A DNA stretch of 28,329 nt from a virus. The notes beneath the pieces were generated by a model. It did no database searches, was not told the DNA's origin, and saw only the letters and a list, made by a program, of their open reading frames with translations. Numbering within the stretch: position 1 is the stretch's first letter; each line of letters begins with the position of its first letter. The translations under genes were made by a program, and so were the position numbers. Of this stretch, positions 6,320 to 28,329 are shown one piece after another. Location of the stretch: positions 1 to 28,329 of the IMG/VR virus record IMGVR_UViG_3300031885_001671; one strand, 5' to 3'.

Positions 6320-6342
6320 CTGCCTAACGTTGCGGACCCCGG

Positions 6343-6371: not shown

Positions 6372-6396
6372 ATAAGCAGATGAAAGGAGGTATTGT

Positions 6397-7090: not shown

Positions 7091-7095
7091 AGATC

Positions 7096-8617: not shown

Positions 8618-8621
8618 CACC

Positions 8622-8650: not shown

Positions 8651-8679
8651 TAGGATATCAAAGCGACGAGGCATCGAGC

Positions 8680-9114: not shown

Positions 9115-9298
9115 GACCAGGGGTGTCCAGGATTGCCGCCGGCTACGACGCCGGGTGGCCCGCATCTACGGACTCGGTCGTATCACCCCGGAGATGTTCG
9201 AGAACCTCCACAGCCGGATAAAGGAGCTCGAGGAGCTTCTGCTTAAGGCGGAAGAGAAGTCCGAAGAGGAGGCACTTAGTGGTGCAGCAAGGAATTGA
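9101..9298 (+). CDS. Small coiled-coil protein
   Basis: A 65-residue, strongly charged helical protein. Arg-rich residues 6-25 are followed by a Leu/Glu heptad-like helix (HSRIKELEELLLKAEEKSEEE). TTG 9101 is chosen because AGGAGG at 9087-9092 is correctly spaced; GTG 9092 overlaps that site. It overlaps the HNH stop and the start of the ATPase gene. It could be a small DNA-associated or adaptor protein; no family recognised. Confidence 0.5.
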   Translation: MLELRTRGVQDCRRLRRRVARIYGLGRITPEMFENLHSRIKELEELLLKAEEKSEEEALSGAARN

Positions 9299-10690: not shown

Positions 10691-10725
10691 ACCAACTCCT
10701 CAGGCCGATATGCTAATGGAGGACG

Positions 10726-10998
10726 ATGACGATGATCAATCTAGGTGATCGGGTCAAGAGTAAGATCACGGGCTTCACTGGAATCGCTGTCTCCCGCGCG
10801 GAGTTCCTGAATGGCTGCATCCGATTCCAGGTGCAGCCAGAGACCCTTAAGGACGGGAAGCAGCTCGAATCCGAGTGGGTCGACGACGTCGAGCTTCAAG
10901 TCGAGACCACGGGAGTACATCAGCTGCCCGAGCGCAAGCGTCCCGGAGGGCCGCACCCCAACCCCGAGCGCAGTCGTCCCCTTCCTGCACGATCGTGA
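10726..10998 (+). CDS. SH3/KOW-like conserved phage protein
   Basis: A 90-residue protein. Residues 4-57 (INLGDRVKSKITGFTGIA, then GCIRFQVQP and SEWVDDVELQ) match a small widespread phage protein with an SH3/KOW-like barrel. The C-terminal 30 residues are proline/arginine-rich. ATG 10726 follows TGGAGGA at 10718-10724 closely; ATG 10732 is an alternative with better spacing. Its TGA overlaps the next ATG. Function unknown. Confidence 0.7.
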   Translation: MTMINLGDRVKSKITGFTGIAVSRAEFLNGCIRFQVQPETLKDGKQLESEWVDDVELQVETTGVHQLPERKRPGGPHPNPERSRPLPARS

Positions 10999-11408
10999 TG
11001 CCCGATCCGACCGAGGTACGGTTCCGTGAGCTTGTCCTCGAGAAGGTCACACTCGGGATGTCGTCCTCGATCGACAAGGGACTCCTGGACAGCATGACGC
11101 TTGACACCGCCACGGATGTGGTAGCTACGAGGATCATCCTCGTTCTGCGTACGAGACTTCTCGGCAACCAGATCTCGCGGGAGGTCCTCGAAGTCAGGGA
11201 GATTCCCAAGACTTGGTGGGACGCCTTCAAGAAGGCCTTCTTCCCGAGCTGGCTGGCCCGATGGTTCCCAGTACGAGTAGAGCGTGTCGAGGTCGTGACA
11301 CAGTTCGTGCACGTCTGTCCGCACCTGATCTCTAGCCAGCCGGATGTGCACTTCCGTTTTCTGTCGAGTCCGTCACAAATAGCCGCCTGGAGACAGGAAG
11401 AAACCTGA
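10998..11408 (+). CDS. Conserved phage protein of unknown function
   Basis: A 136-residue protein. The ATG at 10998 overlaps the previous stop (TGATG); the longer in-frame ORF from 10875 would overlap another gene. Distinctive features are RIILVLRTRLLG, a Trp-rich KTWWDAFKKAFFPSWLARWFP segment split around residues 71-91, then strands VRVERVEVV and FVHVCPH. I recognise this Trp/Phe-rich pattern from small actinophage proteins of unknown function. Confidence 0.65.
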   Translation: MPDPTEVRFRELVLEKVTLGMSSSIDKGLLDSMTLDTATDVVATRIILVLRTRLLGNQISREVLEVREIPKTWWDAFKKAFFPSWLARWFPVRVERVEVVTQFVHVCPHLISSQPDVHFRFLSSPSQIAAWRQEET

Positions 11409-11409
11409 G

Positions 11410-11949
11410 ATGGACAATGTCGAAGCTGAGCAGCTGTTCAAGCTGCTGTTCGAGGCGGCTCCCGGTTTCATAAGTCTGTTCTTCCTCCGGCGCACTGATC
11501 GGCTAGCAGAGCGAGCAGTCTGTGAGACTGCCGACTACATCGAGGCAGCTCGATACGCTCTCACCAAGACAGAGGCTGGCTTCGACTCCTACTTCTCTCC
11601 TGCCGTACTGGCAAACAGACCGAAGGCAGGCGGTCGCGGCAAGAAGGAGGACTTCCTAGGAAGCAGAACCCTGTGGGTCGACGTAGACGCTACGACTCAT
11701 CATCCCGCTGATGAGATCCTACGCCGACTCACGGGGTTTCAGCCTCCACCCTCAGTAGTCGTCCACAGCGGCAATGGCTTTCATGGCTACTGGCTACTAC
11801 GAGAGCTGATCACCGACAAGCCGGCCGTTGAGGCCGCCAACAGGTGGCTTGCTCAAGAGCTTGGAGGTGACCAGTGCTTCAGCATCGATCACGTCCTTCG
11901 AGTCCCCGGCACACTGAACTACAAAGGTCGAGCTGTAAAACGTGACTGA
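11410..11949 (+). CDS. AEP-type DNA primase domain (N-terminal part)
   Basis: A 179-residue archaeo-eukaryotic primase-like domain. It has LWVDVDAT (catalytic D91 and D93), SVVVHSGNGFHGYWLL (H125) and LRVPGTLNYK (163-172), the three AEP motifs as in RepB/prim-pol families. It synthesises primers for phage replication. In single-chain relatives the chain continues after the PGTxNYK motif. Here that continuation (SVRLVLNSPERVYDL) is at the start of the next ORF in the +1 frame, overlapping eight bases. The primase may thus be split or frameshifted. Confidence 0.8.
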   Translation: MDNVEAEQLFKLLFEAAPGFISLFFLRRTDRLAERAVCETADYIEAARYALTKTEAGFDSYFSPAVLANRPKAGGRGKKEDFLGSRTLWVDVDATTHHPADEILRRLTGFQPPPSVVVHSGNGFHGYWLLRELITDKPAVEAANRWLAQELGGDQCFSIDHVLRVPGTLNYKGRAVKRD

Positions 11950-14005
11950 GCCTCTATCTGTGCGTCTAGTGTTGAACTCGCCGGAGCGCGTCTACGACCT
12001 GAGCAGCTTCGGGTCTATAGAGGCAGGGCCGTCTACAGCTGAGTCGTTCGACCCTGAACCTCTCCCTGATAACTTCCTGGAGGTCATTCACCCTAAGACT
12101 AGAGCCCGCATCGTAGACGGCCCTCCATATGGAGATCGGTCGGCTAACGACTTTGCAGTCGCTCGATCTCTGGCTAAGCAGGGCTTCACTCCTGGGCAGG
12201 TGCTGACAGCCTTCATAACGCCGGAGTGGTATGTCGCTCGTAAGACTCGCGACAAGGGGCTGGCATACGCCATACGTACAATCGTTGCCGCCTTCGAGGG
12301 GTTGCCTACGCAGACAACCGGAGCACATCCAACGACACCGCCTGAAGACCTTGCGGCCCTGCTAGAGCGGCTTCACTGGGTCGAATCCGAGAAGGGCTCA
12401 CGACGGCAGAAGGAAGTAGAGCCGGACTACCTGTTTACAGTGCCCGCCGTGAGATGGCTCGCGGAGCACGGAATGCAGTTTCTGCGGGACGTACATACTG
12501 GAGATGGATTCGTGTTCTGGAAGGGTCGCATACTTCGAGCCGATAAGGACAGCCGCGAGCTACGCGATCTACTGTACGAGCTAGCTCACGTCACAGAGAC
12601 CGCCTGGGATAGTCGGAAGCTTCGCGAAGCACTGTCGCATGAAGCACGGGTAAACGGCAACGGCGTAACGCTATATCCGTGGGTGACGTTCGATCCCATC
12701 TCCTGTAAGGGGTACTTACTCCCTGATAGTAGTAGCGGGGAGCTTCTAGTTATCGCACCGAACAAAGAGGTCGAGATAGCCTCTAACGGTACAGACGGCT
12801 TCTTGCTGAAGCCCTCCTTGCTGTCTGAACCTTTGCGGTTGGATTTCGCCACGGACAAGAAAGAGGGTATCCGTAAGATAGTGCAGCTGCTATCGGCCAG
12901 CTTTGCCTGTGAGTCAGGAGTTCGATGCCTCGCGACCTGCTACCTGCTCTCTGTCCCGCTGCAACGTTTCGCATCGGATGACTTACTACCAATACTTCAC
13001 GTGACCGGTCCTTCCGGCGGAGGTAAGTCGTGGGCACTAAAGCTCATGACCACGTGGCTGTACGGACGCTCACTACTCCTGCAAGCGACACAGGCATCTT
13101 CACACGCGATCTCGGACTCCGACCCGTTTCTAGCTCTCGACGACTACGAGTCGCTCGACCCCGAATGGCAGCGACGACTACTCACGGGTGCTACAGGCCA
13201 GGTCCGAGCGAAGATGGGGGCGCAGGCAACCGGAGTCGTACTGCAGCAGAGTACAGTGTGTTTCGCGATGACGAGCATCAATCCGCTGCCGACAGAAACG
13301 CTGAGGCGCCGAGCAGTTGTCATCGAAACAGACGCGGAACGTCTCGGAGACGTAGGCTTCAACGCTACGACGGCGCTGACCGATCTGGCACGCAGCCGAA
13401 ACGAGACGTGGTCAGCATACATCAGGCTGCTCGCTGAAGACATACTGCCACGAATGCAATCAGGCTCGGCTCGCCAGAACATTATGAAGGCCCGCGACAT
13501 AATTGGCATGGAGCAGAACAAGGGACTGAGTACCTTCTTGACCCTCATGTGGTTGGTAGGAGTTAGCATCGAACGCTACGTGCCTCACTTCATGCCGGCG
13601 ATCGAACTTGAGGACGTCATTCAGTCTTGGGCGAAGAGTCTTCTCCTACAGAGCCAGGAGGAGTTTATGGAGCGTGAGCCCCTTATAATGTACGTCGATA
13701 CTGTCTGGGATGAGATCTTGCACTCGGGTGGTGATCTCGAATTTGGTGTCCGAACAGGTGCACTCTTCATCGAGCCAATCATCCGTGGTGGCTCCTTAGT
13801 CGGATTCAGGGGGACGGGTGCACAACTGCATTCCACGTTCGCTACGGTATGTCGTAATCGAGGACTGCGATACGAGTTCAGCAGTCCCAATCAGGTAGGA
13901 AGACGCTTTCAACTGTCGCAGAACCTGCTTGCAGAGTCGGGCTGGATAGTGAAGGCGGCCAGGTTCGGCCCACGTCGTGGGTGGGAGGTCTGCAAACGTG
14001 ACTAA
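11942..14005 (+). CDS. Replicative helicase with PriCT-like N-terminus
   Basis: A 687-residue protein. Residues 1-30 look like the missing end of the upstream AEP domain. Residues about 60-120 (SANDFAVARSLAKQGF, ARKTRDKGLAYAIRTIV) resemble a primase C-terminal (PriCT) domain. The rest is a P-loop ATPase with Walker A GPSGGGKS near residue 357 and FLALDDYESLD near 400, as in phage/plasmid DNA helicases. Unwinds DNA at the fork with the primase. GTG start overlaps the primase stop (GTGACTGA). Only a weak ribosome binding site is present, supporting coupling or frameshift. Confidence 0.82.
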   Translation: MTEPLSVRLVLNSPERVYDLSSFGSIEAGPSTAESFDPEPLPDNFLEVIHPKTRARIVDGPPYGDRSANDFAVARSLAKQGFTPGQVLTAFITPEWYVARKTRDKGLAYAIRTIVAAFEGLPTQTTGAHPTTPPEDLAALLERLHWVESEKGSRRQKEVEPDYLFTVPAVRWLAEHGMQFLRDVHTGDGFVFWKGRILRADKDSRELRDLLYELAHVTETAWDSRKLREALSHEARVNGNGVTLYPWVTFDPISCKGYLLPDSSSGELLVIAPNKEVEIASNGTDGFLLKPSLLSEPLRLDFATDKKEGIRKIVQLLSASFACESGVRCLATCYLLSVPLQRFASDDLLPILHVTGPSGGGKSWALKLMTTWLYGRSLLLQATQASSHAISDSDPFLALDDYESLDPEWQRRLLTGATGQVRAKMGAQATGVVLQQSTVCFAMTSINPLPTETLRRRAVVIETDAERLGDVGFNATTALTDLARSRNETWSAYIRLLAEDILPRMQSGSARQNIMKARDIIGMEQNKGLSTFLTLMWLVGVSIERYVPHFMPAIELEDVIQSWAKSLLLQSQEEFMEREPLIMYVDTVWDEILHSGGDLEFGVRTGALFIEPIIRGGSLVGFRGTGAQLHSTFATVCRNRGLRYEFSSPNQVGRRFQLSQNLLAESGWIVKAARFGPRRGWEVCKRD

Positions 14006-14684
14006 GAAGGTAGTAGCTCTACTCTCTGGTGGGCTCGACTCCGCTGTGATGGCCTTCGAGCTGTGTGCACGTGGGCGTGAACTGATCTTGCTGAGCTTCA
14101 ACTACGAACAGCGCCACTCCAAGGAACTAGGGTGCGCTGCACGCATCGCGAGTATGCCCTTCATCCGCAACCACAGCGAGCACTACGTCATAGATCTTCG
14201 TAGTGTGGGCATACTGCTCAAGGGGTCTGCACTGACCGACCCCAGTGTCGAGGTGCCACAAGGTCATTACGCCGACGAGTCGATGCGTTCGACTGTAGTA
14301 CCCAATCGCAATGCGATCTTCTTGTCCATCGCGTTCGGAATAGCAGCCGCTCATGGAGCCGAGTCTGTCGCGTACGCCGCCCACGCCGGCGACCATCCGA
14401 TCTATCCGGACTGTCGTCCAGAGTTCGTGGTAGCGTTCGAGCTGATGGAGATGCTCGCGATGGCCGGATACGCAGCGGTTCGACTGGAGACGCCGTTCAT
14501 CTATATGACGAAGGATAAGATCGTCAAGCATGGTGACCGGATGTTCGTTCCTTTCGGAGATACCTGGTCGTGCTACGAAGGCGGCGAGCTGCACTGCGGG
14601 CGCTGCGGTACGTGCGTCGAGCGCAAAGAGGCATTTCAGCTTGCGGGGGTGATGGATCCTACAAAATACGAGAGCGAGAGTTGA
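13998..14684 (+). CDS. queC: 7-cyano-7-deazaguanine (preQ0) synthase
   Basis: QueC converts 7-carboxy-7-deazaguanine to preQ0 using ATP and ammonia. The 228-residue protein has LLSGGLDSAVMAFEL (PP-loop SGGLDS at 10-15), VVPNRNAIF, YAAHAGDHPIYPDCR and the zinc-binding Cys cluster CYEGGELHCGRCGTC. GTG 13998 is chosen over 13977 because GGGAGG lies 13983-13988 and the GTGACTAA overlap with the helicase stop mirrors the primase/helicase junction. First gene of the deazaguanine island. Full length, with all hallmark residues. Confidence 0.95.
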   Translation: MTKKVVALLSGGLDSAVMAFELCARGRELILLSFNYEQRHSKELGCAARIASMPFIRNHSEHYVIDLRSVGILLKGSALTDPSVEVPQGHYADESMRSTVVPNRNAIFLSIAFGIAAAHGAESVAYAAHAGDHPIYPDCRPEFVVAFELMEMLAMAGYAAVRLETPFIYMTKDKIVKHGDRMFVPFGDTWSCYEGGELHCGRCGTCVERKEAFQLAGVMDPTKYESES

Positions 14685-14752
14685 CTCTTTGCCGGATGTG
14701 GCAGAGCACTGAAATTCAATACAAAATGTGACTGAAAGGGGGGCTAGAAACG

Positions 14753-15247
14753 TTGACCCTTAACGCGAACGCGAACAAAGATGCAAGTGAAAAAAGTGGG
14801 GCAGATTATGCGAGGGAGCAGGTGGAGTCGCATCTACCACACCCCACAGACGTCGAACGCTACGTTTCGATAGTCAAGACCTACACATTCGAGGCGGCCC
14901 ACCATCTACCAGGGCACATAGGTGCCTGCAAGAACCCACATGGGCACAGCTATCAGCTCGAGGTCGAGGTTGCGGGCCCAATAGTGCAGCATCCAGGAGC
15001 TACCGACGACGGCATGGTGTTCGACTTCGGCGACCTCGACGGCATCGTCGATGACGTGATCCTTCGCTGGGTAGATCATCAAGACCTCACCAGAGTGATG
15101 CCGTACCGCACCACAGCGGAGAACATGGTCTGCGACTTCGCCGAGCGTCTTGGCAGGGTGTTCCACGAAACCCCGCTTCGTCTGGAGACACTGACATTGT
15201 GGGAGACAGCTAAAGGGAGGGCAATCTGGCGGCGACCGTGTCAATGA
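14753..15247 (+). CDS. queD: 6-carboxy-tetrahydropterin synthase
   Basis: QueD makes 6-carboxy-5,6,7,8-tetrahydropterin from dihydroneopterin triphosphate, step two of preQ0 synthesis. The protein has FEAAHHLPG, GACKNPHGHSYQLEVEV (catalytic Cys and zinc His), FDFGDLDGIVDDVI, DHQDLT, PTAEN-like TAENMVCDFA, and LWET near the end. TTG 14753 follows GAAAGGGGGG; a GTG inside (about 14822) would remove a 24-residue polar extension and is a possible true start. The 68-base gap upstream holds a 7-bp hairpin (14687-14706), without a T-run. Confidence 0.93.
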   Translation: MTLNANANKDASEKSGADYAREQVESHLPHPTDVERYVSIVKTYTFEAAHHLPGHIGACKNPHGHSYQLEVEVAGPIVQHPGATDDGMVFDFGDLDGIVDDVILRWVDHQDLTRVMPYRTTAENMVCDFAERLGRVFHETPLRLETLTLWETAKGRAIWRRPCQ

Positions 15248-15259
15248 CGAGGCGCTACA

Positions 15260-15877
15260 ATGCCTAGTAACCTGATAATAGATCTTCGACCTTCATCGAC
15301 ACTTGCGTACGTAGTTGGGGTAGTACTAGGTGATGGGAGTATCTGGCACCCACGACCGCACGAGTACACTATTGGGCTGAGAGTCAAGGACGAAGAGTTC
15401 GCGTCCGCCTTCTTGTACGCACTGCAGCACATAGGTCTAGGTGCGAAGACGATGTGGTGCAGCCAGGAGGCCGGACGTGAGTACCATGTTGTGCGTGCAC
15501 GTGGGAAAGCCCTGTACACCTACTTACGGCCGATGAAGGATGACCCGTCCTGTGCGACTGAGATCGCGCTACAGTACCCTCGAGACTTTCTCCGAGGGAT
15601 GTACGATAGTGAAGGCTCGCTTCACACCGATTCTACCCGATACGGCTACCGCCACATCCAGCTGCCCTCAACAGATCGGCGCATTCTGGAGGTCTGCGGG
15701 GCCTGTCTAGACTCTCTGGAGATTCCTTACTACTTCTACACCTACGGTCGCAAGCCTAACAGCTTCAACCCGCACCCGTTCGTGGTGCACAAGCTGGCGC
15801 TGAACAGGCAGTGTGCGATAGACAGATTCCTACTCGAGGTTGGGTCTTCAATCCCACGTAAGAGAGGAGGTACCTAG
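15260..15877 (+). CDS. Freestanding LAGLIDADG homing endonuclease
   Basis: A 205-residue protein with two LAGLIDADG motifs, LAYVVGVVLGDGS near residue 15 and FLRGMYDSEGS near 110, each supplying an acidic catalytic residue (GDG and DSEG). Single-chain, two-motif enzymes of this size cut long DNA sites as a monomer. No intron or intein surrounds it. It sits between queD and the phosphoribosyltransferase gene and has an insertion-like position in the deazaguanine operon. Its TAG overlaps the next GTG, so it has been fitted into the operon. Confidence 0.9.
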   Translation: MPSNLIIDLRPSSTLAYVVGVVLGDGSIWHPRPHEYTIGLRVKDEEFASAFLYALQHIGLGAKTMWCSQEAGREYHVVRARGKALYTYLRPMKDDPSCATEIALQYPRDFLRGMYDSEGSLHTDSTRYGYRHIQLPSTDRRILEVCGACLDSLEIPYYFYTYGRKPNSFNPHPFVVHKLALNRQCAIDRFLLEVGSSIPRKRGGT

Positions 15878-16431
15878 TGGAAATCATCCCGATCATAGAG
15901 CCTAAGAAGATCCGTGAGTGTCTGAAAGGCATCGCAGACGAGATTCGCGCGCAGCACGGAGAGCAGAAGATCCTGTTGGTGCCTGTACTCAACGCCGCCT
16001 ACATTATGGGGGCAGACATCAGTCGCCTGCTGAGCGACCTGAATCCTACGATCTGCTTCGTGCTTGCGAAGTCCTACGTAGCTGATCGTCGTGCGGCTAT
16101 GGGAGTCGTCGTGCGCCCCCTCGACAGCACCGTGTACAACGACGTTCAGGCGGCTATCATCCTCGATGTCGTTATCGATACGGGGCGCACACTCGCCGCT
16201 GTAGGACTGCGCCTTCACGACTTCGCACCACGCGCCGAGATCTCGGCGTATACGCTAGTAGCGAAGCCGGACAAGCTCCGCTACAAGTGTACGTTCCCTG
16301 TCTACAGCCGGATCATGTTGCCAGGTGATCCCTGGCTAGTAGGCTTCGGACTGGACTCCAACGGGAAGTATCGTTCACTGCAGTATATAGGAGAGACGAA
16401 GTATGGAGAAGGAGCAGTCCTACCAGGTTAA
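15877..16431 (+). CDS. HPRT-like purine phosphoribosyltransferase
   Basis: A 184-residue PRPP-dependent transferase. The PRPP loop IILDVVIDTGRT (94-105) carries the base-catalytic D101. The ending LVGFGLDSNGKYRSLQYIGE matches the VGYGLDYNEKYR end of hypoxanthine-guanine PRTs. The usual second acidic residue before the loop is Val here (LDVV), and the segment that normally contacts the purine is altered. It sits between queD and queE. It may salvage guanine released by DpdA, or act on a deazapurine; both are inference. AGAGGAGG precedes the GTG start, and it overlaps queE by 29 bases. Confidence 0.82.
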   Translation: MEIIPIIEPKKIRECLKGIADEIRAQHGEQKILLVPVLNAAYIMGADISRLLSDLNPTICFVLAKSYVADRRAAMGVVVRPLDSTVYNDVQAAIILDVVIDTGRTLAAVGLRLHDFAPRAEISAYTLVAKPDKLRYKCTFPVYSRIMLPGDPWLVGFGLDSNGKYRSLQYIGETKYGEGAVLPG

Positions 16432-17026
16432 CGAGATCTTTCGCTCCATACAAGGCGAGGGCTTCTGGTGTGGTACGCAGGCAGTCTTTGTACGCCTACA
16501 AGGCTGTCCCGTCGGCTGCGAGTGGTGCGACACCAGACGAACTTGGGGACGTGGCGGAACGTCAATGACCATCTCGGAGATCGTAGGAGAGATCACCCGC
16601 CTCAACATCGGACAGTTCGGCCACGTCGTCATCACGGGCGGCGAGCCAACGATCTGGGAACTCGGGCCGCTCGTCGATGCACTACACTTCCGACCATACT
16701 ACGTGCAGCTAGAGACGTCGGCACTGGAGGGTGGCAAGGACATATCACGGCGACCCAACTGGATAACCGTATCGCCTAAGGCACAGCTCGACTTCAGGAT
16801 CAGGGAGTCGTTTCGCCGTCACAACGGCGTCAACGAGGTGAAGTACGTCGTCGACGACAGCTTCGACGAGGCAGTGGTGGACGAGAGTCTGCACGCCCCG
16901 ATCTATCTGATGCCAGAGGGGCTACCGTCCCGAGTAGAGATGATCCACAAGACCCTCGAGATACTGGAGCGGCATCCAGCCTGGCGGTTCGGCTCACGAC
17001 TACAAGGCTGGATAAACATAAGATAG
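16403..17026 (+). CDS. queE: 7-carboxy-7-deazaguanine synthase
   Basis: QueE is a radical SAM enzyme making 7-carboxy-7-deazaguanine from carboxy-tetrahydropterin. The 207-residue protein has FRSIQGEG, the cluster-binding CPVGCEWCD (C35, C39, C42, CxxxCxxC), a VITGGEPTIW segment, and a C-terminal FGSRLQGWINIR. Length is typical. It overlaps the preceding PRTase gene by 29 bases, so coupling is likely. The last bases belong to a 22-base direct repeat copied again inside folE. Confidence 0.94.
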   Translation: MEKEQSYQVNEIFRSIQGEGFWCGTQAVFVRLQGCPVGCEWCDTRRTWGRGGTSMTISEIVGEITRLNIGQFGHVVITGGEPTIWELGPLVDALHFRPYYVQLETSALEGGKDISRRPNWITVSPKAQLDFRIRESFRRHNGVNEVKYVVDDSFDEAVVDESLHAPIYLMPEGLPSRVEMIHKTLEILERHPAWRFGSRLQGWINIR

Positions 17027-17122
17027 TTGCGGCGCAGGCGTGCTTTAACCGGCGCTAGTGTGATATAATAGGGATAGAGTATGAAAACACAGAACACACC
17101 GGATAAACATACGATAGTTGCG
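17010..17122 (+). repeat. 22-base direct repeats flanking folE promoter
   Basis: Positions 17010-17031 and 17101-17122 are identical at 21 of 22 bases (ggataaacata, a or c, then gatagttgcg), 91 bases apart. The first covers the end of queE, the second the N-terminal coding part of folE. Between them lie the family 2 promoter and the folE start. This suggests a duplication, or an insertion of a promoter cassette by recombination. Confidence 0.85.
17040..17069 (+). promoter_or_regulatory. Promoter, family 2, ahead of folE
   Basis: GTGCTT (17040-17045) or TGCTTT (17041-17046) serves as -35, and TATAAT (17064-17069) as -10. GTTGCGG (17026-17032) and TGCTTTA keep the same spacing as at 6329-6350. 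The predicted start near 17076 lies only about five bases before ATG 17081, so this transcript should be nearly leaderless. Confidence 0.7.
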
Positions 17123-17683
17123 ACTGATGAGCTCATACCCATCATCACGTCACTGCTGGATGTAGTAGGACCACCACTCTGGGCGGAGGATCCGAATCTG
17201 GTAGACACACCAGCACGTGTCGCACGCATGTACAGAGAGCTCTTGACGCCAGAGGCGTTCAATCCGACAACCTTCCCTAACGACCCACAGAACGGATACG
17301 ATCAGGTCGTCCTCGTCAAGGACGTAGTCTTCCACTCACTCTGTGCTCACCACCTGTTGCCCTTCTCAGGACGGGTCGCAATCGCGTACATCCCGTACGC
17401 AACGGTGATAGGCCTCAGTAAGCTGGTACGTATAGTAGAGCACTACAGCAGGATGTTGCAGATACAAGAGTCGCTTACGCAGGACATCGGCGACTACCTA
17501 GTAGAGCTGCTTCACCCACGTGGAGTTGCAGTCATCGTTGAAGCGGCGCACCTGTGCATGCGCATGCGTGGTGTACGCAGCCCAGATAGTGTTGCGGCCA
17601 CATCCTTCATGTGGGGTGCATTTCGAGAGCGCCCAGAAGCCCGTGCCGAACTGATGCAGCTTCTATATGGAGGTACAAGGTGA
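17081..17683 (+). CDS. folE: GTP cyclohydrolase I
   Basis: Converts GTP to dihydroneopterin triphosphate, the first step of preQ0 synthesis. The 200-residue protein has DTPARVARMYRELL, SLCAHHLLPFSG (zinc ligands C88, H91 and H90), and HLCMRMRGV with C159. The tail is usual length. An N-terminal stretch of about 15 residues overlaps a direct repeat and is not conserved-looking, so a start further downstream cannot be excluded. It has its own promoter and overlaps the mazG start as GTGA. Confidence 0.94.
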   Translation: MKTQNTPDKHTIVATDELIPIITSLLDVVGPPLWAEDPNLVDTPARVARMYRELLTPEAFNPTTFPNDPQNGYDQVVLVKDVVFHSLCAHHLLPFSGRVAIAYIPYATVIGLSKLVRIVEHYSRMLQIQESLTQDIGDYLVELLHPRGVAVIVEAAHLCMRMRGVRSPDSVAATSFMWGAFRERPEARAELMQLLYGGTR

Positions 17684-18024
17684 GCGACCTCAGTGTTGGA
17701 CACATGCTTGAGGAGGTAGCTAGATGGGATGGCGTGTGGCGCTTCTCAAACGCCGCAACGGTACACAACTTGATGCAATATACCATCGCGCTCTGCGGCG
17801 AAGCAGGAGAGTTCGCAAACGTCGTCAAGAAGCACGTGCGCAGCTCCGACGAGAACGCCGCCGGCGAGCTCGTCGACGCACGTAGCAAGATGCTCGAGGA
17901 GCTAGTTGACGTGCAGATCTACTTCACTAAGCTCCTGCTCGTACTCGGATGCGACGCAAGCGAGTTTCGTGAGGCCTGGGATGCTAAGCATCAGGTCTTA
18001 CGGGAGCGTTGGGGGGCAGGCTAA
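17680..18024 (+). CDS. MazG-like nucleotide pyrophosphohydrolase
   Basis: A 114-residue all-alpha NTP pyrophosphohydrolase-type protein. CGEAGEFANVVKK (E41, E44) and EELVDVQIY (E73/E74, D77) are the two metal-binding ExxE/ExxD motifs. It hydrolyses (d)NTPs to monophosphates plus pyrophosphate. GTG start overlaps the folE stop, ATGGAGG upstream. Position between folE and dpdA suggests control of a particular nucleotide, possibly guanine nucleotide levels or unwanted dNTPs, but substrate cannot be read from sequence. Confidence 0.85.
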   Translation: MSDLSVGHMLEEVARWDGVWRFSNAATVHNLMQYTIALCGEAGEFANVVKKHVRSSDENAAGELVDARSKMLEELVDVQIYFTKLLLVLGCDASEFREAWDAKHQVLRERWGAG

Positions 18025-18788
18025 TGAGAGTGGCAATCATAGCACCACCGAGACTGCTGCACCTGTCAGAGGCTACCAACTACCACCTAGGACTAGTGCA
18101 GCTTGTGAAGACAGACAAGGTGTACCGTGAGTGGCACCGAACACAAGCTGAAGCTGGCCACTACGTAATCCTGGACAACGGTGCTGCCGAGGGTGTAGTA
18201 CCACCATCACCGCCGATACTGCTCCGGTGGGCACGTGAGATCAAGGCGAACGAGGTCGTCGCGCCCGACGCGCTCTGCGACTTCCGAGGCACTCTTAGCC
18301 TCACCGAGCAGTTCATAACGGAAGCACTAATTCGTCAGTCATTCAACGGCAACTTCATGCTCGTACCACACGGGCAGGACTATACAGAGTGGCTCTACTG
18401 CTTCAGGCGGATGCGTGAACTGTGGAGCGGTCCACGGTTCATATACGGCATATCGAGAGCAGTCGAGCGTCGATGGGACTTTCCGGTACGTCGCTCGGAG
18501 ATCGTCATGAGACTAGTTCGCGACGGCCTGCTACGCCCCCTTGAGCAGGTACACCTGCTAGGCGTAGGGAACTCCCTAGTCGACATAGAACTCCTCGCCG
18601 ATAGTCCTTACGTGCGTGGCATCGACACATCTCTGCCGATTGTAGCCGCACAACACGGAGTCGACCTGTCGAACCTCCGAGGCGTAGACCTTCAGCGACT
18701 GCGATACGACCCGTTCGAAAGTCGCATCAGCGACGAGCTAGCACACAACAACATCGCCTTCTTTAGGGGATTGTGTCACGATGAGTGA
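18024..18788 (+). CDS. dpdA: DNA 7-deazaguanine transglycosylase (DpdA)
   Basis: A 254-residue TGT-fold protein related to queuine tRNA-guanine transglycosylase but of the DNA-modifying DpdA type. It has YVILDNGAAEG (D51), VAPDALCDFRGTL (D82, D86), FMLVPHGQD, HLLGVGNS and RGIDTS (D201, probable nucleophile). It exchanges guanine in DNA for preQ0 or a derivative. It lacks a CxCxxC zinc cluster seen in tRNA TGTs. Start at 18024 overlaps the mazG stop (TAATG). Coexistence with queC, D, E and folE makes the DNA role much more likely than a tRNA role. Confidence 0.9.
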   Translation: MRVAIIAPPRLLHLSEATNYHLGLVQLVKTDKVYREWHRTQAEAGHYVILDNGAAEGVVPPSPPILLRWAREIKANEVVAPDALCDFRGTLSLTEQFITEALIRQSFNGNFMLVPHGQDYTEWLYCFRRMRELWSGPRFIYGISRAVERRWDFPVRRSEIVMRLVRDGLLRPLEQVHLLGVGNSLVDIELLADSPYVRGIDTSLPIVAAQHGVDLSNLRGVDLQRLRYDPFESRISDELAHNNIAFFRGLCHDE

Positions 18789-19122
18789 GGAGATCGCAAA
18801 GCTCACCCTCCTCGTCCCACTCTTCGAGGAGGGCCGTCTAGTCTGCAGTGTAGAAGAGGCCGCTAGCATCGGTCACGTAGTGGTAATGGAAGTCGACGGC
18901 CATGGTGAGATCTGTGACATGTGGGTAAAGCCAGAATATCGAGGGTGGCATTACGGCAGTCGACTACTGGAAACTGCGATACAATGGCTGCGTGATCGAG
19001 GCTGCGAAGATGTGGTTCTGCACGTAGAGACCGACAACAAGGTTGCACTGCACCTATATCGAAAAGCCGGCTTCACAGAGACCCGCAAAGAGTACCATAT
19101 GAGGCGGCTCCTTGGCGAATAA
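18781..19122 (+). CDS. GNAT-family acetyltransferase
   Basis: A 113-residue N-acetyltransferase. ICDMWVKPEYRGWHYG includes the acetyl-CoA binding RGxHxG-like motif, followed by LLETAIQWLRDRGCEDVVLHV and NKVALHLYRKAGF, the standard GNAT C-terminal motif. The substrate is unknown: antibiotic, protein or a modified base are all possible. Overlaps dpdA by eight bases (ATGAGTGA). Whether it modifies the deazaguanine product is open; proximity is the only hint. Confidence 0.87.
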   Translation: MSEEIAKLTLLVPLFEEGRLVCSVEEAASIGHVVVMEVDGHGEICDMWVKPEYRGWHYGSRLLETAIQWLRDRGCEDVVLHVETDNKVALHLYRKAGFTETRKEYHMRRLLGE

Positions 19123-21499
19123 GCACCCGCTAGCTGAGTGCGACGGCTGTCCACTACTGGAGGAGATCTACATCCCTCCCGAAGGTCCAGAGCGGGCAGA
19201 TGTCGTCCTACTAGGACAGGCGGGTGCGAACGAAGAGGCCAAACTGAAGCGCCCCTTTGTCGGCTCCGCCGGAAGACTGCTAGATAAGGTATGTGGGGCG
19301 GTAGGAATTGATCGAGAGGCTTCCTGGGTTACCAACTCGGTCCTGTGTCGGGTACCGGCTGGAGGCAAGGTACCTGTAACGGCTGTACGAGCGTGTCGTA
19401 AACGCCTCCTGAACGAGCTAGACACCCACCACCCTAAGGTCATAGTCGCAATGGGAGGCGTAGCGTATCAGGCGCTCCACGATCTTGACAGTCAAGCCGG
19501 TATCATGCTGGTGAGGGGTAAGGTCGAGACGTACAACGAAGCGTATGTCGTTCCCACTGTGCATCCGGCCGCGATGCTATACCCGGGTGCACAGGGTATG
19601 TTTGTCGACTTTGCACGCGATATGGAGAAGGCTGGTCGACTCCTAAGGGGCGAGAAGCCTCCTGAGCCGCTCGATATCGTACACGCAGTCATCATAGATA
19701 TAGCCACACTTGGACGCTGGAGCCACTTGGTTACTGAAGGCTCACAGCTCGCAATGGCCTGTGATATTGAGACGACAGGCTTTGACTCTCGCGAGGACTC
19801 GATCCTTTGTATATCCTTCTCTTGGGGCAAAGGGCTCACTGCAGTGGTTGCAGGTGAGTTGCATGACGACGAACAGGCACGGAGCCTCCTCAACTTTGTA
19901 TTCGAGCATCCTAAGCTCCGATGGATATTCCACAACGGCAAGTTCGACACGCAGTTCTTACGGGCTGCCGGACTAAAGGCACGTTGCGAAGATGACACAA
20001 TGCTGGCCAGCTACGCCCTTGACGAACGTAGCACACGAGATCCCGGTAGCGGCCGTACAGGTGGGATCGGCCACGGACTCAAGAAGCTCGCTGCCGAATA
20101 CTGTGCTGCGCCCAACTACGAAGCAGAACTGCGTAAGTATCTGCCGCACAAGAAGGCGTCGTACGCAGACATTCCGCGTGATAAGTTGTACAAGTACGCC
20201 GCGTACGACGCCGCTTATACTCGTGAGCTAGCCTACGTACTTGGGAAGCTCCTACGCGATGAGCCTGGTCCACAGCGGTTCTACCGTGAGGTACTGATCC
20301 CTGGTGCAGAGGCATTCTCTCGTGTCGAAGAGGCCGGCTTCGCCCTGGACACGGACTTCTTAGTAACTGAGTTCGAGGAGAAGTACTTTACCGACCTCCA
20401 AGAGCGTGAGCGACAGATGCAGGAGTACGTAGGCATCAAACACTTCAATCCGCGCTCTCCACAACAGGTGGCGGAGATCTTCTTCGATCGGCTGAAGCTA
20501 CCAAAGGTCAAGGGTAAGGGACGCTCTACCGATAAGGAGGTCCTCGAGGTCCTTGCGCCACGGCACGAGTTCCCCCGGATGGTACAGCAGTACCGAGGGA
20601 TACACAAGGAGTACTCCACCTACGTCGTCGGGCTGCTAGAGAGCGTACGAGAGGATGGAAGGATACACGCTACGTACCTGCTCCACGGATCGGTAAGCAG
20701 GACGTCGTGCAACGAGCCTAACGTCCAGAACATTCCTCGGCCACCGGAGTCGCGCATGCGAGATGCATTCATCGCCTCGCCTGGGAACGTCCTACTGCAG
20801 GCCGACTATCGACAGCATGAGTTCCGCGTTATGGCTGTTGCCTCTGGAGATGAGTACTTATGCGAGCGGTTCCGTGATCCGAGCTGGAACATCCACGCCG
20901 ATATGGCCAGGCGCGTCTACGGCCCAGATTACACCCACACGCAGTATGTCTGGGCTAAGATGATCGACTTCGGCGTGCTCTACGGCCGAGGCGACTACTC
21001 ACTGTCGATACAACTGGACTGCACAACAATTGAGGCACACCACTTCATTGAGGAGTTCTTCGCACCCTACCCGCGCGTGCGAGAGAAGCGGGCGGAGGTG
21101 CAACACGAAGCGATCGTACGTGGTTGGATCGAAGCCCTTACTGGGCGTCGACGACGGTTCGGTCTCATCACACGGATGAACGTCGAGGATGTTCGGAAGC
21201 AGGCGTGCAACTTCATAAGTCAGGGACCAGCTTCGGACACCACTGTTGTGTCGATGGCAAACCTACTGCCGCCGAGATCTCACGACCTTTGGGACATGGG
21301 CGTTCGAGTCGTACAGATGGGACATGACGCACTGATCTTCGATGTGCCACGCAACGTACTACGGGATACCGCTGCGATCGTTGTGGAGGTAATGGAGAGG
21401 ACACCACGTGAGCTGCTCCGTACGGACGTACCGTTCTTTGTGGACTTGAGCTATGGCGAACGATGGGGAGGTCTTATCGACCTACCTAAGGAAGCCTAG
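19112..21499 (+). CDS. Uracil-DNA glycosylase-DNA polymerase I fusion
   Basis: A 795-residue, two-part protein. Residues 1-190 are a family 4 (Fe-S) uracil-DNA glycosylase: C10, C13, C79 and C95 ligands, KRPFVGSAG, and TVHPAAML. Residues 210-400 are a 3'-5' exonuclease (ACDIETTGFD, FHNGKFDTQFL, YAAYDAAYT). The rest is a family A polymerase: motif A ADYRQHEFRVMA, motif B AKMIDFGVLYG, and motif C MGHDALIFDVP. Replicates phage DNA. TTG start, overlapping GNAT by 11 bases. Motif A differs from the usual DYSQIELR. A UDG fused to a polymerase is known from SPO1-type phages. Confidence 0.93.
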   Translation: MANKHPLAECDGCPLLEEIYIPPEGPERADVVLLGQAGANEEAKLKRPFVGSAGRLLDKVCGAVGIDREASWVTNSVLCRVPAGGKVPVTAVRACRKRLLNELDTHHPKVIVAMGGVAYQALHDLDSQAGIMLVRGKVETYNEAYVVPTVHPAAMLYPGAQGMFVDFARDMEKAGRLLRGEKPPEPLDIVHAVIIDIATLGRWSHLVTEGSQLAMACDIETTGFDSREDSILCISFSWGKGLTAVVAGELHDDEQARSLLNFVFEHPKLRWIFHNGKFDTQFLRAAGLKARCEDDTMLASYALDERSTRDPGSGRTGGIGHGLKKLAAEYCAAPNYEAELRKYLPHKKASYADIPRDKLYKYAAYDAAYTRELAYVLGKLLRDEPGPQRFYREVLIPGAEAFSRVEEAGFALDTDFLVTEFEEKYFTDLQERERQMQEYVGIKHFNPRSPQQVAEIFFDRLKLPKVKGKGRSTDKEVLEVLAPRHEFPRMVQQYRGIHKEYSTYVVGLLESVREDGRIHATYLLHGSVSRTSCNEPNVQNIPRPPESRMRDAFIASPGNVLLQADYRQHEFRVMAVASGDEYLCERFRDPSWNIHADMARRVYGPDYTHTQYVWAKMIDFGVLYGRGDYSLSIQLDCTTIEAHHFIEEFFAPYPRVREKRAEVQHEAIVRGWIEALTGRRRRFGLITRMNVEDVRKQACNFISQGPASDTTVVSMANLLPPRSHDLWDMGVRVVQMGHDALIFDVPRNVLRDTAAIVVEVMERTPRELLRTDVPFFVDLSYGERWGGLIDLPKEA

Positions 21500-24194: not shown

Positions 24195-25208
24195 TCAGCT
24201 GGGTGTCTGTTCGATGACTCCAACGACGCTGCCGTCCTTACGATGCAGGACGCGTCGAAGATCCTGAGGCCCGGCGAAGCCGACCACAAGGTCGCCGCGC
24301 GTGAGGTCTGCGATGACAGAGTCACGTAACGCCCTCGAGAGCTCTCTTAGCTCGGAGGCACTCACCCTTTGTTCTACGACCGCTAGGTCCGGCATCGAAT
24401 CACCTCCAAGATCTACTTCTCGAATAGCCGCCCACAGATTCTGATCGGCGTATTCGTACACCCACCAGGAAAGGCAAGACGCTCCGTAAGAGATAGCTAG
24501 CCTGGCGAAGTCGAGCAGCTCTTTCGGCGTCGTCGAGTGCGGTGCAATCGCTACAGAGTCGCCGGCCGGCTGCCACATGTTCGCCGGGAGTCCACTCGCA
24601 CACCAGTCGAGGTAGCTCCGTCGAGCTGCCTCCTCCCCCCTATCTGGACGATAGTACTGAGTACCCACAGGGAACATGCTTCCCGAGTACGCCATTGGGA
24701 ATGCGGCCTCACAGTACTCGTTGAACACGTCGTACGGGAACGCTCGGTGATAGTGAGGCTGTGCGAACGGCGAGTAGAACAGTCGAGCATTCGGTACGGC
24801 AGTCTTGATGCGCGTTAGGTAGTCGCGTGCTGTTTGGCCAGGTCGCGGCAGACTCTCGAACTCGATCTCGGCGTCTGCAATATAGCCGTCACCACCGAGA
24901 TCGGTTAGTGCACGCACAGCCATAGCTGCCTCTTGCTCCCAGCCGAGTTTCTGGTCGCCATAGAAACTTCCTGCCTGTCCGTAGACGTACCCCCAGAACA
25001 TCACTAGGAGACCCTCGTTGTGTAGGCAGCGTACAACCTCACGAGTGCGATCTAGGTTCCAGGTGAGACCAAATGGATGCCCACCATCATCGCTCTTGAT
25101 GAAGCACCCTCGGAAGCCCGCAGAGAGGAGCTGGCGTGCTACGGCGTGGGCGTTTCCGTCAGAGGAGTGCTCCCAATTCCAGATCCAGGCGTACTTTCCG
25201 GACAGCAC
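24195..25208 (-). CDS. TIM-barrel glycoside-hydrolase-like protein
   Basis: A 337-residue protein. Residues 1-250 read as a beta/alpha barrel: YAWIWNWEHSS, GFRGCFIKSDDG, GLLVMFWGYVYG, YIADAEIEFE (candidate acid residues), RLFYSPF, AFPMAYSG and CLSWWVYEYAD. Such barrels occur in endolysins and tail-associated glycoside hydrolases. The C-terminal 80 residues are a helical linker (ELRELSRALRDSV) and a small strand region. GGAGGTGA lies before the GTG start. Substrate and family cannot be fixed by eye. It stands downstream of structural genes, so a tail enzyme or lysin is likely. Confidence 0.65.
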   Translation of the reverse strand: MLSGKYAWIWNWEHSSDGNAHAVARQLLSAGFRGCFIKSDDGGHPFGLTWNLDRTREVVRCLHNEGLLVMFWGYVYGQAGSFYGDQKLGWEQEAAMAVRALTDLGGDGYIADAEIEFESLPRPGQTARDYLTRIKTAVPNARLFYSPFAQPHYHRAFPYDVFNEYCEAAFPMAYSGSMFPVGTQYYRPDRGEEAARRSYLDWCASGLPANMWQPAGDSVAIAPHSTTPKELLDFARLAISYGASCLSWWVYEYADQNLWAAIREVDLGGDSMPDLAVVEQRVSASELRELSRALRDSVIADLTRGDLVVGFAGPQDLRRVLHRKDGSVVGVIEQTPS

Positions 25209-25283
25209 AATCTCACCTCCACTTGTAGACCACTCATCTGCAGTCGACGCGATAGAACGTAGGCGCGCAGGTGTGTAAGGGGT

Positions 25284-25670
25284 TTACCGCGTCGGTCGCG
25301 TTGCAGGATGAGGCGAAGCAAACTGCCGTGTGCGTTCGCTACTACTGTCGCGTACGGAGCGGACGAAGTACAGAGCCTTCCAAGTACCACTGAAAATCTC
25401 CTGGAGCAGATCTATTATTGGTTGCCCCTTAAATGGCTTGCACGAGAATACATGTGCCTGTGCAACGAGTCCTCGGACGTGAATGCTTATGTGGCTCTCA
25501 GCAATGAGCTGGAAGCCTACTCCATAGGCTTCGTAGACGACCGGTGTGGCAATCTTCGTCATTCCGATCAGTTGTACGGCACGCTCTAGGAACACACCGA
25601 TATCACCTGGGTGGCAGGCGACGTCTATACCCTCAGCCGCCAAGTGATAGCCGTGGAGTGCAGTCTTCAT
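25284..25670 (-). CDS. S-adenosylmethionine decarboxylase-family protein
   Basis: A 128-residue pyruvoyl-enzyme homologue. HGYHLAAEG at the N-terminus, GVGFQLIAESHISIH (self-cleavage at E58-S59, H64) and AHVFSCK (C77) match the catalytic Ser, His and Cys of prokaryotic AdoMetDC (SpeD/SpeH). The length also fits. The ATG at 25670 overlaps the previous stop (ATGA), so the longer start at 25700 is rejected. Relatives have turned into ornithine or arginine decarboxylases, so the substrate is not certain. It follows structural genes rather than polyamine genes. Confidence 0.82.
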   Translation of the reverse strand: MKTALHGYHLAAEGIDVACHPGDIGVFLERAVQLIGMTKIATPVVYEAYGVGFQLIAESHISIHVRGLVAQAHVFSCKPFKGQPIIDLLQEIFSGTWKALYFVRSVRDSSSERTRQFASPHPATRPTR

Positions 25671-26029
25671 ACTATTCCGCTCGGGTTGAGAGTACACCAC
25701 CCCACAGTGGTCACAGACGGATGATCTCCTATATCTACTATCTCGGCCTCGTGGTAGTAGACTCGGGCGTCAAGCTCTTTGGTGTCGTCGGATTCGAGAG
25801 TGAGAACGAACTGCCCCCTATTGGTCCCCTGATCTAGAATGACGATGCCTTCTACAGGTGAGGTCTTCCTGAGTATATGTGTTGGTGAGTCTTCACGCAG
25901 CTTCAGTAGCCATGTGATCTGACTTGCTGTTAGGTCGAGCAGTTCATCGTCCACTCCGCCACGTATCTCGAACGTGACCTCCTTGGTCTCACCTGCGTAC
26001 ATCTCGAAGTTCTGCTCTACGTCTGTCAT
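25667..26029 (-). CDS. Small Ig-like structural protein (BppU-type)
   Basis: A 120-residue all-beta protein. It begins with FEMYAGETKEVTFEIRG, then SQITWLLKL, GQFVLTLESDDTKEL, YYHEAEIVD and a final strand VTTVGWCTL. This resembles the small beta-sandwich proteins of tail/baseplate regions (BppU N-terminal-like). ATGA overlaps tie it to the repeat protein upstream and the AdoMetDC-family gene downstream. Likely a baseplate, tail-fibre or capsid accessory part. Confidence 0.65.
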   Translation of the reverse strand: MTDVEQNFEMYAGETKEVTFEIRGGVDDELLDLTASQITWLLKLREDSPTHILRKTSPVEGIVILDQGTNRGQFVLTLESDDTKELDARVYYHEAEIVDIGDHPSVTTVGWCTLNPSGIV

Positions 26030-28179
26030 GGCACGTTACCCCCTAAGGCCAACTCGGTCGACTTCGTGCCGGTGAGGAATATCGTAGCCCTCTGTCCGCG
26101 CAGCTCGATAGTGCCGATAATATTGGCGGGTCGCGCAACAACCGCAGCTCTTGCGGTGCTGACACGACTGTAGGTTCCGAGTGATAGCATCGCTGCTCGA
26201 GACGTCCCTATCTGACTACACAGGCGTAGAACCCGTCCTTTAGCGACCCCCGTGTGACTGAGGAGTTGCAGCACTCGCACCCGAGCGGTTGCTGTCTTGG
26301 TTGCAGAGACCAACGAGCGAGCAAGCGCCTGCGTAGTCCTGCTGATAGAGGCTAGAGTTCGGCTTCTAGCCTGACTGGTCTTGCTCGCAGCCCACAGAAT
26401 ACGCCCGTGGCTGACCGCGGTCTTGGCGCGAACCAACAGCATCCGGCTCTTTGCTACGCTCTCCTTCAGTAGGGTAGTAACGCTGATGATATTGGCTCGG
26501 GCAGTACCGGTTGTGGCAATTGATCTGAAGATGCGGGCGTATGTCGTGCCGGCTTTGCTGTTCGATATGAGCACCGCCGCCCTAGCGGTAGCTGTACGTA
26601 CGAGCGTTATTAGGATGCGTCCTCGAGCGGTCGCAGTCTTGAAGCGGGTAGTGAGGCTGATAACGTTGGCTAGTACCGTACCAGTCTTTGTCCAGACGTA
26701 GAAGACGCGAGCCTTAGCCGTGCTGGTCTTGACGCTCGTCGCCGCTGCGACGATGTTGGCTAGGGTCGTGCTAGTCTTAGCGAAGACAGCTAACAGCCGC
26801 GTCTTAGCCGTAGCGGTCTTCGTCTGGCTCAGTAGGATTCGTCCGCGGGCCGTAACCGTCTTGATGCGAGTAAGAAGGATCTGTGCCTTGCTCGTAGCGG
26901 CCCGGGTCCAGGTGCGAAGGGTACGAGCCTTGCTTGTAGTTGTCCGTATGAACTGCCCGAGAACTCGCGCACGAGCAGTTCCTATCTTGACACGGACGAG
27001 GAGCACGCGGGCGAAGGCCGTACTAGTCTTCGTCCGACCCGCAATGAGGATACGAGCAAGTACCGTTCCCGTTTGCGCAATGGCCTTTTGAATGCGTGCT
27101 CGGCTTGTACCAGTTCGACTGATAGGTACAAGTAGACGCGCCCCGCTCGTCGCAGTCCTAGCGGCGGTCGTCAGCATGCGTGCGAGTATACTGCTCGTCT
27201 TGCTGCGAATGAGGGCGATTCGCCCGAGAGTGGTTGTGGTCTTGAAGCTGGTAGAGATGCCGATGACGTTAGCTAATGCGGTGCTAGTCTTTGTCCAGAC
27301 GTAGAAGATTCGAGCTCTAGCTGTGCCTGTCTTAACACTTGTAGCTGCTGCGACGATATTGGCTAGTGCGGTACCAGTCTTAGTGAAGATCGTCAGTACG
27401 CGTGCGACGGCGGCAGCGGTCTTCGTACGACTCAGGAGAACACGACTGCGTGAAGTTGCTGTCTTCGTGCGTGTGAGAAGGATCTGCGCCTTACCCGTCG
27501 CAGTCTTCGTCCAGAGGTAGAGGACGCGGGCTTTGCTCGTCGCTGTCTTCGCTCGAGTGTAGAGGATACGAGCTTTGCTCGTAGCTGTCCTCGTTCGGGT
27601 GAGTAGGACACGAGCCTTGCTTGCGGCGGACTTCGTCCAGGTGTAGAGAACTCGGGCTTTACTCGTCGCTGTCTTCGTCAGAAGGCCGAGCGTACGAGCT
27701 CTACTCGTAGCCGCCTTAGTTATGGAGGTAAAGACCCGCGACTTGCTTATAGCCGTCTTCGTCCGGATATAGGGCGTACGCGCAAGACTCGTAGCTGTCT
27801 TCGTGCGTGTGTAGAGTACGCGCGCCTTGCCTGTAGCGGCCTTCGTGCGTGTATAGAGGATACGAGCAAAACTCGTAGCTGTCTTTGTTCGCTCACGAAG
27901 TATGCGTGCAAGGCTCGTAGCCGTCTTAGTTATGGAGGTGAAGATCCGAGACTTGCTCGTAGCCGTCTTCGTCTGAGTGTAGAGGATACGAGACTTGCTT
28001 ATAGCCGTCTTTGCCTGAGTGTAGAGGATACGAGACTTGCTCGCCGCCGTTTTCGTCCAAGTGTAGAGGATACGGGCGAGAGCGACAGCTGTACGGGAAA
28101 CGGAGTCAATGCCGCGCAGGTAATCTAAGTGACGGAGGCTGGAGCCACCCTCACTCTTCCGAAGCCGAAAGCTCGGCAT
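26026..28179 (-). CDS. 14-residue-repeat structural protein
   Basis: A 717-residue protein starting at ATG 28179, behind GAAGGAG; the GTG at 28203 lies further upstream, inside the previous gene. After about 28 unique residues come 46 tandem units of about 14 residues (consensus K-T-A-T-S-K-A-R-I-L-Y-T-x-T), then a 33-residue ending with IIGTIELRGQRATIFL. Hydrophobic and small residues alternate as in beta strands, suggesting a beta-solenoid or fibre. The protein is very rich in Thr, Arg, Lys and Ala and strongly basic. Upstream of an Ig-like gene, it is probably a tail or fibre component; no known fibre domain is recognisable. Confidence 0.78.
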   Translation of the reverse strand: MPSFRLRKSEGGSSLRHLDYLRGIDSVSRTAVALARILYTWTKTAASKSRILYTQAKTAISKSRILYTQTKTATSKSRIFTSITKTATSLARILRERTKTATSFARILYTRTKAATGKARVLYTRTKTATSLARTPYIRTKTAISKSRVFTSITKAATSRARTLGLLTKTATSKARVLYTWTKSAASKARVLLTRTRTATSKARILYTRAKTATSKARVLYLWTKTATGKAQILLTRTKTATSRSRVLLSRTKTAAAVARVLTIFTKTGTALANIVAAATSVKTGTARARIFYVWTKTSTALANVIGISTSFKTTTTLGRIALIRSKTSSILARMLTTAARTATSGARLLVPISRTGTSRARIQKAIAQTGTVLARILIAGRTKTSTAFARVLLVRVKIGTARARVLGQFIRTTTSKARTLRTWTRAATSKAQILLTRIKTVTARGRILLSQTKTATAKTRLLAVFAKTSTTLANIVAAATSVKTSTAKARVFYVWTKTGTVLANVISLTTRFKTATARGRILITLVRTATARAAVLISNSKAGTTYARIFRSIATTGTARANIISVTTLLKESVAKSRMLLVRAKTAVSHGRILWAASKTSQARSRTLASISRTTQALARSLVSATKTATARVRVLQLLSHTGVAKGRVLRLCSQIGTSRAAMLSLGTYSRVSTARAAVVARPANIIGTIELRGQRATIFLTGTKSTELALGGNVP
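26128..28095 (-). repeat. Coding tandem repeats, 46 units of about 42 bases
   Basis: Counted in protein, the block has 46 units: mostly 14 residues, with six of 16, one of 15 and a final one of 13. At DNA level the units are diverged, so they are an old minisatellite rather than fresh copies. Units 17-20 and 31-34 form a higher-order duplication (both contain LANIVAAATSVKT, FYVWTKT and LANVI), 14 units apart. The 16-residue units sit mainly in these blocks. Confidence 0.92.
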
Positions 28180-28327
28180 GTTGCTCCTTCGGTAGCGGTC
28201 CACCGTAGCGCTGCCGCAGCAGGCAGGCGTAGTACGTGATCATCTTCGGCTCGTCCACGTCGAAGTCGCTGAAGGATGGCACGAAGGGCTCCGTCTCCGA
28301 CGACAGGATCGCGGCGATGCCCTTCAT
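28151..28327 (-). CDS. Hypothetical protein, possibly truncated by window edge
   Basis: A minus-strand ORF of at least 58 residues, reading MKGIAAILSS, then DFDVDEPKMITYYACLLRQRYG and ending ELSASEE. It overlaps the repeat-protein start by 29 bases, so translational coupling is likely. The ATG lies two bases from the window edge and may be internal to a longer gene. No family recognised; position in the late operon suggests a structural or assembly role. Confidence 0.55.
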   Translation of the reverse strand: MKGIAAILSSETEPFVPSFSDFDVDEPKMITYYACLLRQRYGGPLPKEQHAELSASEE

Positions 28328-28329
28328 GA

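Follow-up and report, generated by a model that had tools for sequence, protein, structure and literature searches.

A 14-residue repeat family of uncultured phages, and a 46-unit array that is a candidate shaft of a virion stalk

Described repetitive fibre proteins and the window gene

In phage phiCbK, gp76, a large repetitive protein with a lectin domain, is encoded in the head module and is the candidate head filament (PMC3556154). Agrobacterium phage 7-7-1 has capsid fibres whose structure is not known (PMC12796354). The repeat proteins described here share with gp76 a repetitive sequence and, among relatives of the window protein, a head-module setting; two of these relatives (L185 and L159; relative loci carry L numbers) also have a lectin-like domain. 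However, gp76 is Gly-rich rather than rich in Thr, Ala and Arg and lacks a 14-residue period, and the family profile described below found no match in the phiCbK stretch holding gp76 or in the 7-7-1 genome. The repeat protein of our window may work like gp76 or the 7-7-1 capsid fibres. The same 14-residue unit is represented, in relatives of the window protein, by the cluster phrog_25538, which has no name, function or structure and whose reach does not extend to the window protein itself.

The window, by which we mean the whole stretch of 28,329 nucleotides analysed, is a fragmentary IMG/VR contig of an uncultured phage. The preliminary description of this DNA had placed a repeat protein at 26026-28179. 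These coordinates are correct, and it is the minus strand that carries the ORF (ATG at 28179, stop at 26026, 717 aa); the plus strand of the same interval is interrupted by stops. The Shine-Dalgarno sequence is found at 28184-28189, four bases 5' of the ATG; translation is less likely to begin at the in-frame GTG at 28203. The features of the gene are as follows.

26026 to 28179, minus strand: repeat protein gene, 717 aa, ATG with Shine-Dalgarno AAGGAG
28096 to 28179, minus strand: non-repeat N-terminus, residues 1-28 (MPSFRLRKSEGGSSLRHLDYLRGIDSVS), from the segmentation
26125 to 28095, minus strand: 46-unit array, from the segmentation and the family profile (E=4.6e-57)
27334 to 27381, minus strand: 16-residue unit in which Arg8 is replaced by Asn (KTGTALANIVAAATSV), from the segmentation and the family profile
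27244 to 27291, minus strand: 16-residue Asn unit (KTSTALANVIGISTSF), same evidence
26731 to 26778, minus strand: 16-residue Asn unit (KTSTTLANIVAAATSV), same evidence
26641 to 26688, minus strand: 16-residue Asn unit (KTGTVLANVISLTTRF), same evidence
26467 to 26514, minus strand: 16-residue Asn unit (TTGTARANIISVTTLL), same evidence
26029 to 26124, minus strand: C-terminal tail, residues 686-717, mostly non-repeat, from the segmentation

The array was delimited with a 14-position profile fitted to the protein. Residues 29-685 resolve into 46 units of 14-16 residues, the number counted earlier for 26128-28095, and they occupy 657 of the 717 residues (92%; the earlier estimate was over 90%). 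The segmentation scores 962, compared with a mean of 260 and a maximum of 296 for 50 shuffles, each refitted identically. A lag of 14 gives a residue identity of 0.376, and most other lags about 0.06-0.1. The unit consensus is K-T-A-T-S/A-K/L-A-R-I/V-L-x-T-x-T. Spacing is mostly 14 residues, with seven longer spacings, six by two residues and one by one. Lys and Arg are very abundant and acidic residues nearly absent, and the strong basic charge noted in the preliminary description is confirmed by a net charge (K+R-D-E) of +128. The N-terminus, M-x-x-F-x-L-R, resembles by eye those of relatives L201 (MSFFQLR) and L183 (MAFIALR). A block of about 60 residues is duplicated inside the array (residues 468-527 and 267-326, at 26599-26778 and 27202-27381 on the minus strand; DNA 73% identical).

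Between units, codons mismatch at 0.68 of third positions, compared with 0.48 and 0.44 at the other two. In the coding frame pS (0.72) exceeds pN (0.46), the two shifted sense frames giving about 0.49/0.52. The codon-position bias, together with an excess of pS over pN in the coding frame only, indicates that the repeat is a real protein and not a DNA artefact.

Searches with the window protein itself returned little. Neither Pfam nor NCBIfam has a match, in keeping with the earlier statement that no named phage fibre domain with this repeat is known. PHROG gave nothing convincing, phrog_25538 not being listed at E up to 1, and Rfam gave no match. Back-translated peptides of the repeat protein, of its downstream neighbour and of the operon's last gene found no direct relatives. 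The only tblastn match among 50,697 phage genomes was to an unrelated tandem array, the DQRPATS repeat of Escherichia phage PhiR12_3, and was discarded as low complexity. That array (L002, 7995-8612) is a near-perfect DQRPATS/GRWSLVA tandem, open on both strands, and its annotation as a transporter is an artefact of the simple repeat. The sole PDB match found by phmmer, gp75 (E 0.009), was also rejected: the alignment is of low complexity and lacks the T-x-T-x-x-A-R-I core, and the E value is marginal for a protein of biased composition.

A family of 14-residue repeats in uncultured phages

Relatives were sought with DNA patterns derived from the repeat. The pattern T-[A/G]-T-x-x-A-R, occurring twice 42 bases apart, returned 94 stretches. 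A repeat profile found no relative among the loci retrieved from these, where a similar unit was seen only in a Streptomyces element, L037. The relaxed pattern T-x-T-x-x-A-R-[IV], required in two adjacent units, returned 55 viral-contig stretches, most of which encode genuine 14-residue repeat proteins. About 40-50 viral contigs carry the unit, with the consensus [QK]-T-x-T-[G/A]-x-A-R-I-x-x-T-x-x. A later profile matched repeat ORFs in all viral pattern loci except five, and an extra pattern with Leu10 added one member, L206. Nearly all the relatives are metagenomic. A scan of bacterial genomes gave mostly chance matches, the only convincing member being a Blastocatellia MAG contig (L120), and tblastn with relatives L201, L183 and L151 found nothing in the 50,697 phage records. 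Among the relatives, phrog_25538 matches the unit in L183 (6.5e-22), L159, L169, L201 and L186, so the 14-residue unit is not unique to the window protein; a Pfam scan of relatives yielded no model that fits the repeat. The family appears to be undescribed, PHROG 25538 having no function assigned.

L037 has a 14-residue period and a T-A-T-x-x-A-R-I core, as in the family, but a different gene context. It and its twin L112 give no match to the family profile; they were for that reason not accepted as members and are treated as convergent. Both carry a 14-residue TATLRARINATVKL repeat (L037, 5258-6865, minus strand) with perfect alternation of polar and non-polar residues, in the position of a tape-measure gene.

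A family profile was built from 86 non-redundant three-unit segments of relatives, the window being left out. Against the window ORF it gives E=4.6e-57, with 2.7e-8 for the best domain, and none of the shuffled, reversed or unrelated ORFs fell below E=0.2. Part of this score is built in, because the search pattern was derived from the window repeat. Three checks are independent of the pattern. First, at the nine unconstrained positions of the unit, the window scores -296 against the preferences of the relatives, compared with -659 (sd 41) for within-unit shuffles; the absolute score is negative, which marks the window protein as a divergent member. Second, extra residues come after units in which Arg8 is Asn. 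In the window, inserts accompany 4/4 scored Asn units and 3/18 Arg units; among the relatives the corresponding numbers are 12/24 and 45/401 (p=9e-6). Third, the gene that follows the repeat gene in the window, related to phrog_1084, has counterparts among the relatives: the next gene in L181 (3.5e-15), the downstream gene in L159 and L178 (weaker matches) and probably a gene in L169, whose record has one match at 5.6e-4. Partner genes in L166 and L189 match Pfam BppU_N weakly, and direct comparison of the window protein's downstream neighbour with the BppU_N-like proteins of relatives is also weak.

Position 5 of the window unit is Ala or Ser in 79% of scored units and Gly in 3%. Gly5 does not define the family, because 13 of 40 scored relatives also have mainly Ala or Ser there. 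The preliminary description had suggested that the basic charge could bind DNA, cell-wall teichoic acid or acidic glycans. Positive charge is common to the family: the charge per unit is about +2.8 in the window and has a median of +1.9 in the family. The mean is positive in every scored relative, L183 and some others being far less charged owing to Glu in the unit. By these sequence comparisons, the window protein is a divergent member of the family, with Ala/Ser5 and a very basic composition, and the family itself is widespread among uncultured phages.

Three observations concern individual relatives. L198 encodes a 3080-residue member with lectin-like domains, recognised by eye (329-9568, minus strand). 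L191 has two adjacent repeat genes (8920-14595, minus strand). In L158 the repeat gene occurs twice in perfect inverted orientation (3691-4383, plus strand; 9113-9805, minus strand), which looks like an assembly palindrome.

Fold of the array

The shaft of adenovirus-type fibres is a triple beta-spiral, built of a short repeat of about 15 residues with alternating residues. The repeat length is similar here, but the window units lack its Gly/Pro turn. The preliminary description had proposed a beta-solenoid of about 14 residues per turn, and the predictions divide on it. AlphaFold models, made as monomers, disagree: ten window units, aligned with the other units of the protein, form a single long helix (pLDDT 88, pTM 0.37), whereas a canonical relative, modelled from a family alignment of 20 rows, comes out all beta with two short strands per 14 residues (pLDDT 50, pTM 0.34). 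The proposal is thus favoured by low-confidence beta coils in a relative and opposed by the helix of the window units. The top Foldseek matches of the relative's model in the PDB are almost all beta-solenoids, the class of hemolysin A, LpxA/LpxD/GlmU and the ice-binding proteins, though the best has E 0.49 and TM below 0.4 and none is significant. Nor was there a significant match among viral structures, or a sequence match to the solved beta-solenoids in the PDB.

The strongest hydrophobic harmonic, at 154 degrees, is nearer that of a strand than of a helix. Fourteen residues make two heptads, as a coiled coil would need, but the two-residue inserts break the heptad; they preserve strand alternation. 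A helix of 600 residues is difficult to reconcile with the Gly/Thr-rich relatives, and a beta fold is therefore the preferred, though putative, reading of the array.

Gene neighbourhoods and possible place in the particle

Upstream of the repeat gene, the contig extends for 150 bases beyond the start codon. The genes around it are as follows.

28151 to 28327, minus strand: upstream gene, truncated at the contig end so that its 3' part is present, and overlapping the start of the repeat gene
25667 to 26029, minus strand: 120-aa phrog_1084-like (BppU_N-type) gene, PHROG E=5e-6
25284 to 25700, minus strand: S-adenosylmethionine decarboxylase-like (SpeD-like) gene of the same operon, PF02675 E=3.1e-6
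24195 to 25208, minus strand: last gene of the operon, 337 aa, with no family match and TIM-barrel-glycosidase-like by eye

The start codon of the phrog_1084-like gene overlaps the stop of the repeat gene (ATGA). No head gene is among these visible neighbours (the phrog_1084-like, SpeD-like and 337-aa genes). The plus strand encodes a DNA polymerase, ribonucleotide reductase, an SNF2 helicase and other replication genes. In one relative identified through the polymerase, terminase, portal-like and capsid-like genes, as read from the sequence, open a minus-strand operon beside the early genes, and because of this order the minus-strand genes at 24195-28329 of the window are read as the probable end of a late operon. 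The repeat is absent from L003 and L004, two distant polymerase-based relatives of the window phage.

Other features of the window deserve mention. The SpeD-like gene (25284-25700, minus strand) sits within the apparent late operon. The polymerase (19112-21499, plus strand) is of family A with an exonuclease domain, and its N-terminus is a domain of the uracil-DNA-glycosylase superfamily (PF03167, 2.6e-20). Genes that by eye resemble queC, queD, queE, folE and a DpdA-like gene (13977-18788, plus strand) suggest 7-deazaguanine DNA modification; similar genes are present in L003.

In the relatives, the neighbours of the repeat gene include clusters matching a major head protein (phrog_267, 2e-22), a head-tail adaptor (phrog_442, 5e-10) and SU10_adaptor (PF24175, 9e-15). 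Further order, read from sequence, is tail tube, chaperone and tape measure. Three small proteins, C0, C1 and C2 (median 182, 152 and 96 residues), accompany the repeat gene, and searches with their representatives gave no family match. In some relatives the array is fused to other domains: LamG in L185 (Laminin_G_3, PF13385, 3e-23), Gly_rich_2 in L159 (PF21722, 1e-12), which also matches the tail-fibre-assembly cluster phrog_863 (1e-11), and other surface-type domains elsewhere. The structural role proposed earlier gains support, short of proof, from the occurrence of the relatives' repeat genes among capsid, adaptor and tail genes. Together with the domain fusions, this position suggests that the array serves virion proteins as a linker or shaft. 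We therefore favour, at a probability of roughly 0.6, the reading that the 46-unit array is the elongated shaft of a stalk or fibre on the virion surface. The repeat, its coding nature, the family and the gene neighbourhoods are directly observed; the presence of the protein in the virion, its position on the particle, the shape of the shaft and any ligand are what we infer from these comparisons.

Where such a stalk would sit is suggested by the relatives, which point to the head or neck, whereas the position of the window gene near the operon end leaves room for the tail. A stalk mounted specifically on the head, as a capsid or neck fibre or decoration, is a reasonable prospect at somewhat less than even odds. 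The repeat gene follows the C0-C2-C1 set on the major-capsid side in 21 of 39 relative loci, with the adaptor cluster at most three genes downstream in 11, and phiCbK gp76, encoded in a head module, likewise has both repetitive sequence and a ConA-like lectin domain (PMC3556154). However, the window gene seemingly belongs to the last part of the late operon, with the SpeD-like and 337-aa genes after it, and neither gp76 nor the structural genes of 7-7-1 match the family profile. The shaft of a tail fibre or tail spike encoded near the lysis genes is a weaker candidate. It accords with that same position in the window, with the phrog_1084-like next gene, with weak matches of some relatives' partner genes to tail PHROGs, and with the L159 Gly-rich domain, which is like those of tail fibres, and its phrog_863 match. 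But among the relatives whose neighbouring genes can be read, most have the repeat gene upstream of the head-tail adaptors and not beside tail-tip genes.

An internal protein that binds or condenses DNA, its +128 charge neutralising the packaged genome, would account for the wealth of Lys and Arg, the scarcity of acidic residues and the positive units of all scored relatives; the fusion of several arrays to lectin-like, glycine-rich and other surface-type domains, and the much lower charge of relatives with Glu in the unit (L183), make it improbable. A tape-measure protein with basic repeats is more improbable still: the TATLRARI repeat gene of L037 lies between a tail assembly chaperone and distal tail genes and has a tape-measure-like C-terminus, and the window units are modelled as a long helix, but L037 does not match the family profile, the window gene is followed by the phrog_1084-like, SpeD-like and 337-aa genes with no distal tail genes, and in the relatives a tape-measure-like gene (cluster C13) lies apart from the repeat gene, downstream of it.

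If the array is the shaft of a surface stalk, the short non-repeat ends would serve as its anchor and tip, and the overlapping phrog_1084/BppU_N-like protein may be its partner, as adaptor or cap. The length of the shaft would be set by the number of repeats, and the 16-residue Asn units might form local bulges in it. For 46 units, a beta-solenoid would give a rod of about 22 nm (about 0.48 nm per unit) and a long helix or coiled coil one of about 99 nm, compared with about 36-60 nm for an ordinary trimeric fibre (12-20 residues per nm, PMC3556154). In some other members of the family, such a shaft would bear lectin-like or glycine-rich domains. More tentatively, the family may represent a class of surface stalks that is widespread in phages but has escaped recognition, with a modular 14-residue shaft of a fold outside the structure libraries searched, mounted on the head or neck, decorated with lectin-like domains and serving, before infection, to tether the phage to glycans, flagella or surfaces.

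Because repetitive virion proteins count as low complexity in alignment searches, those of uncultured phages routinely go without annotation. In phiCbK, the protein of the capsid or neck fibre is not established (PMC3556154). Should the repeat protein be a surface stalk, its family would offer a concrete, testable protein for such fibres, and a simple repeat scaffold of tunable length.
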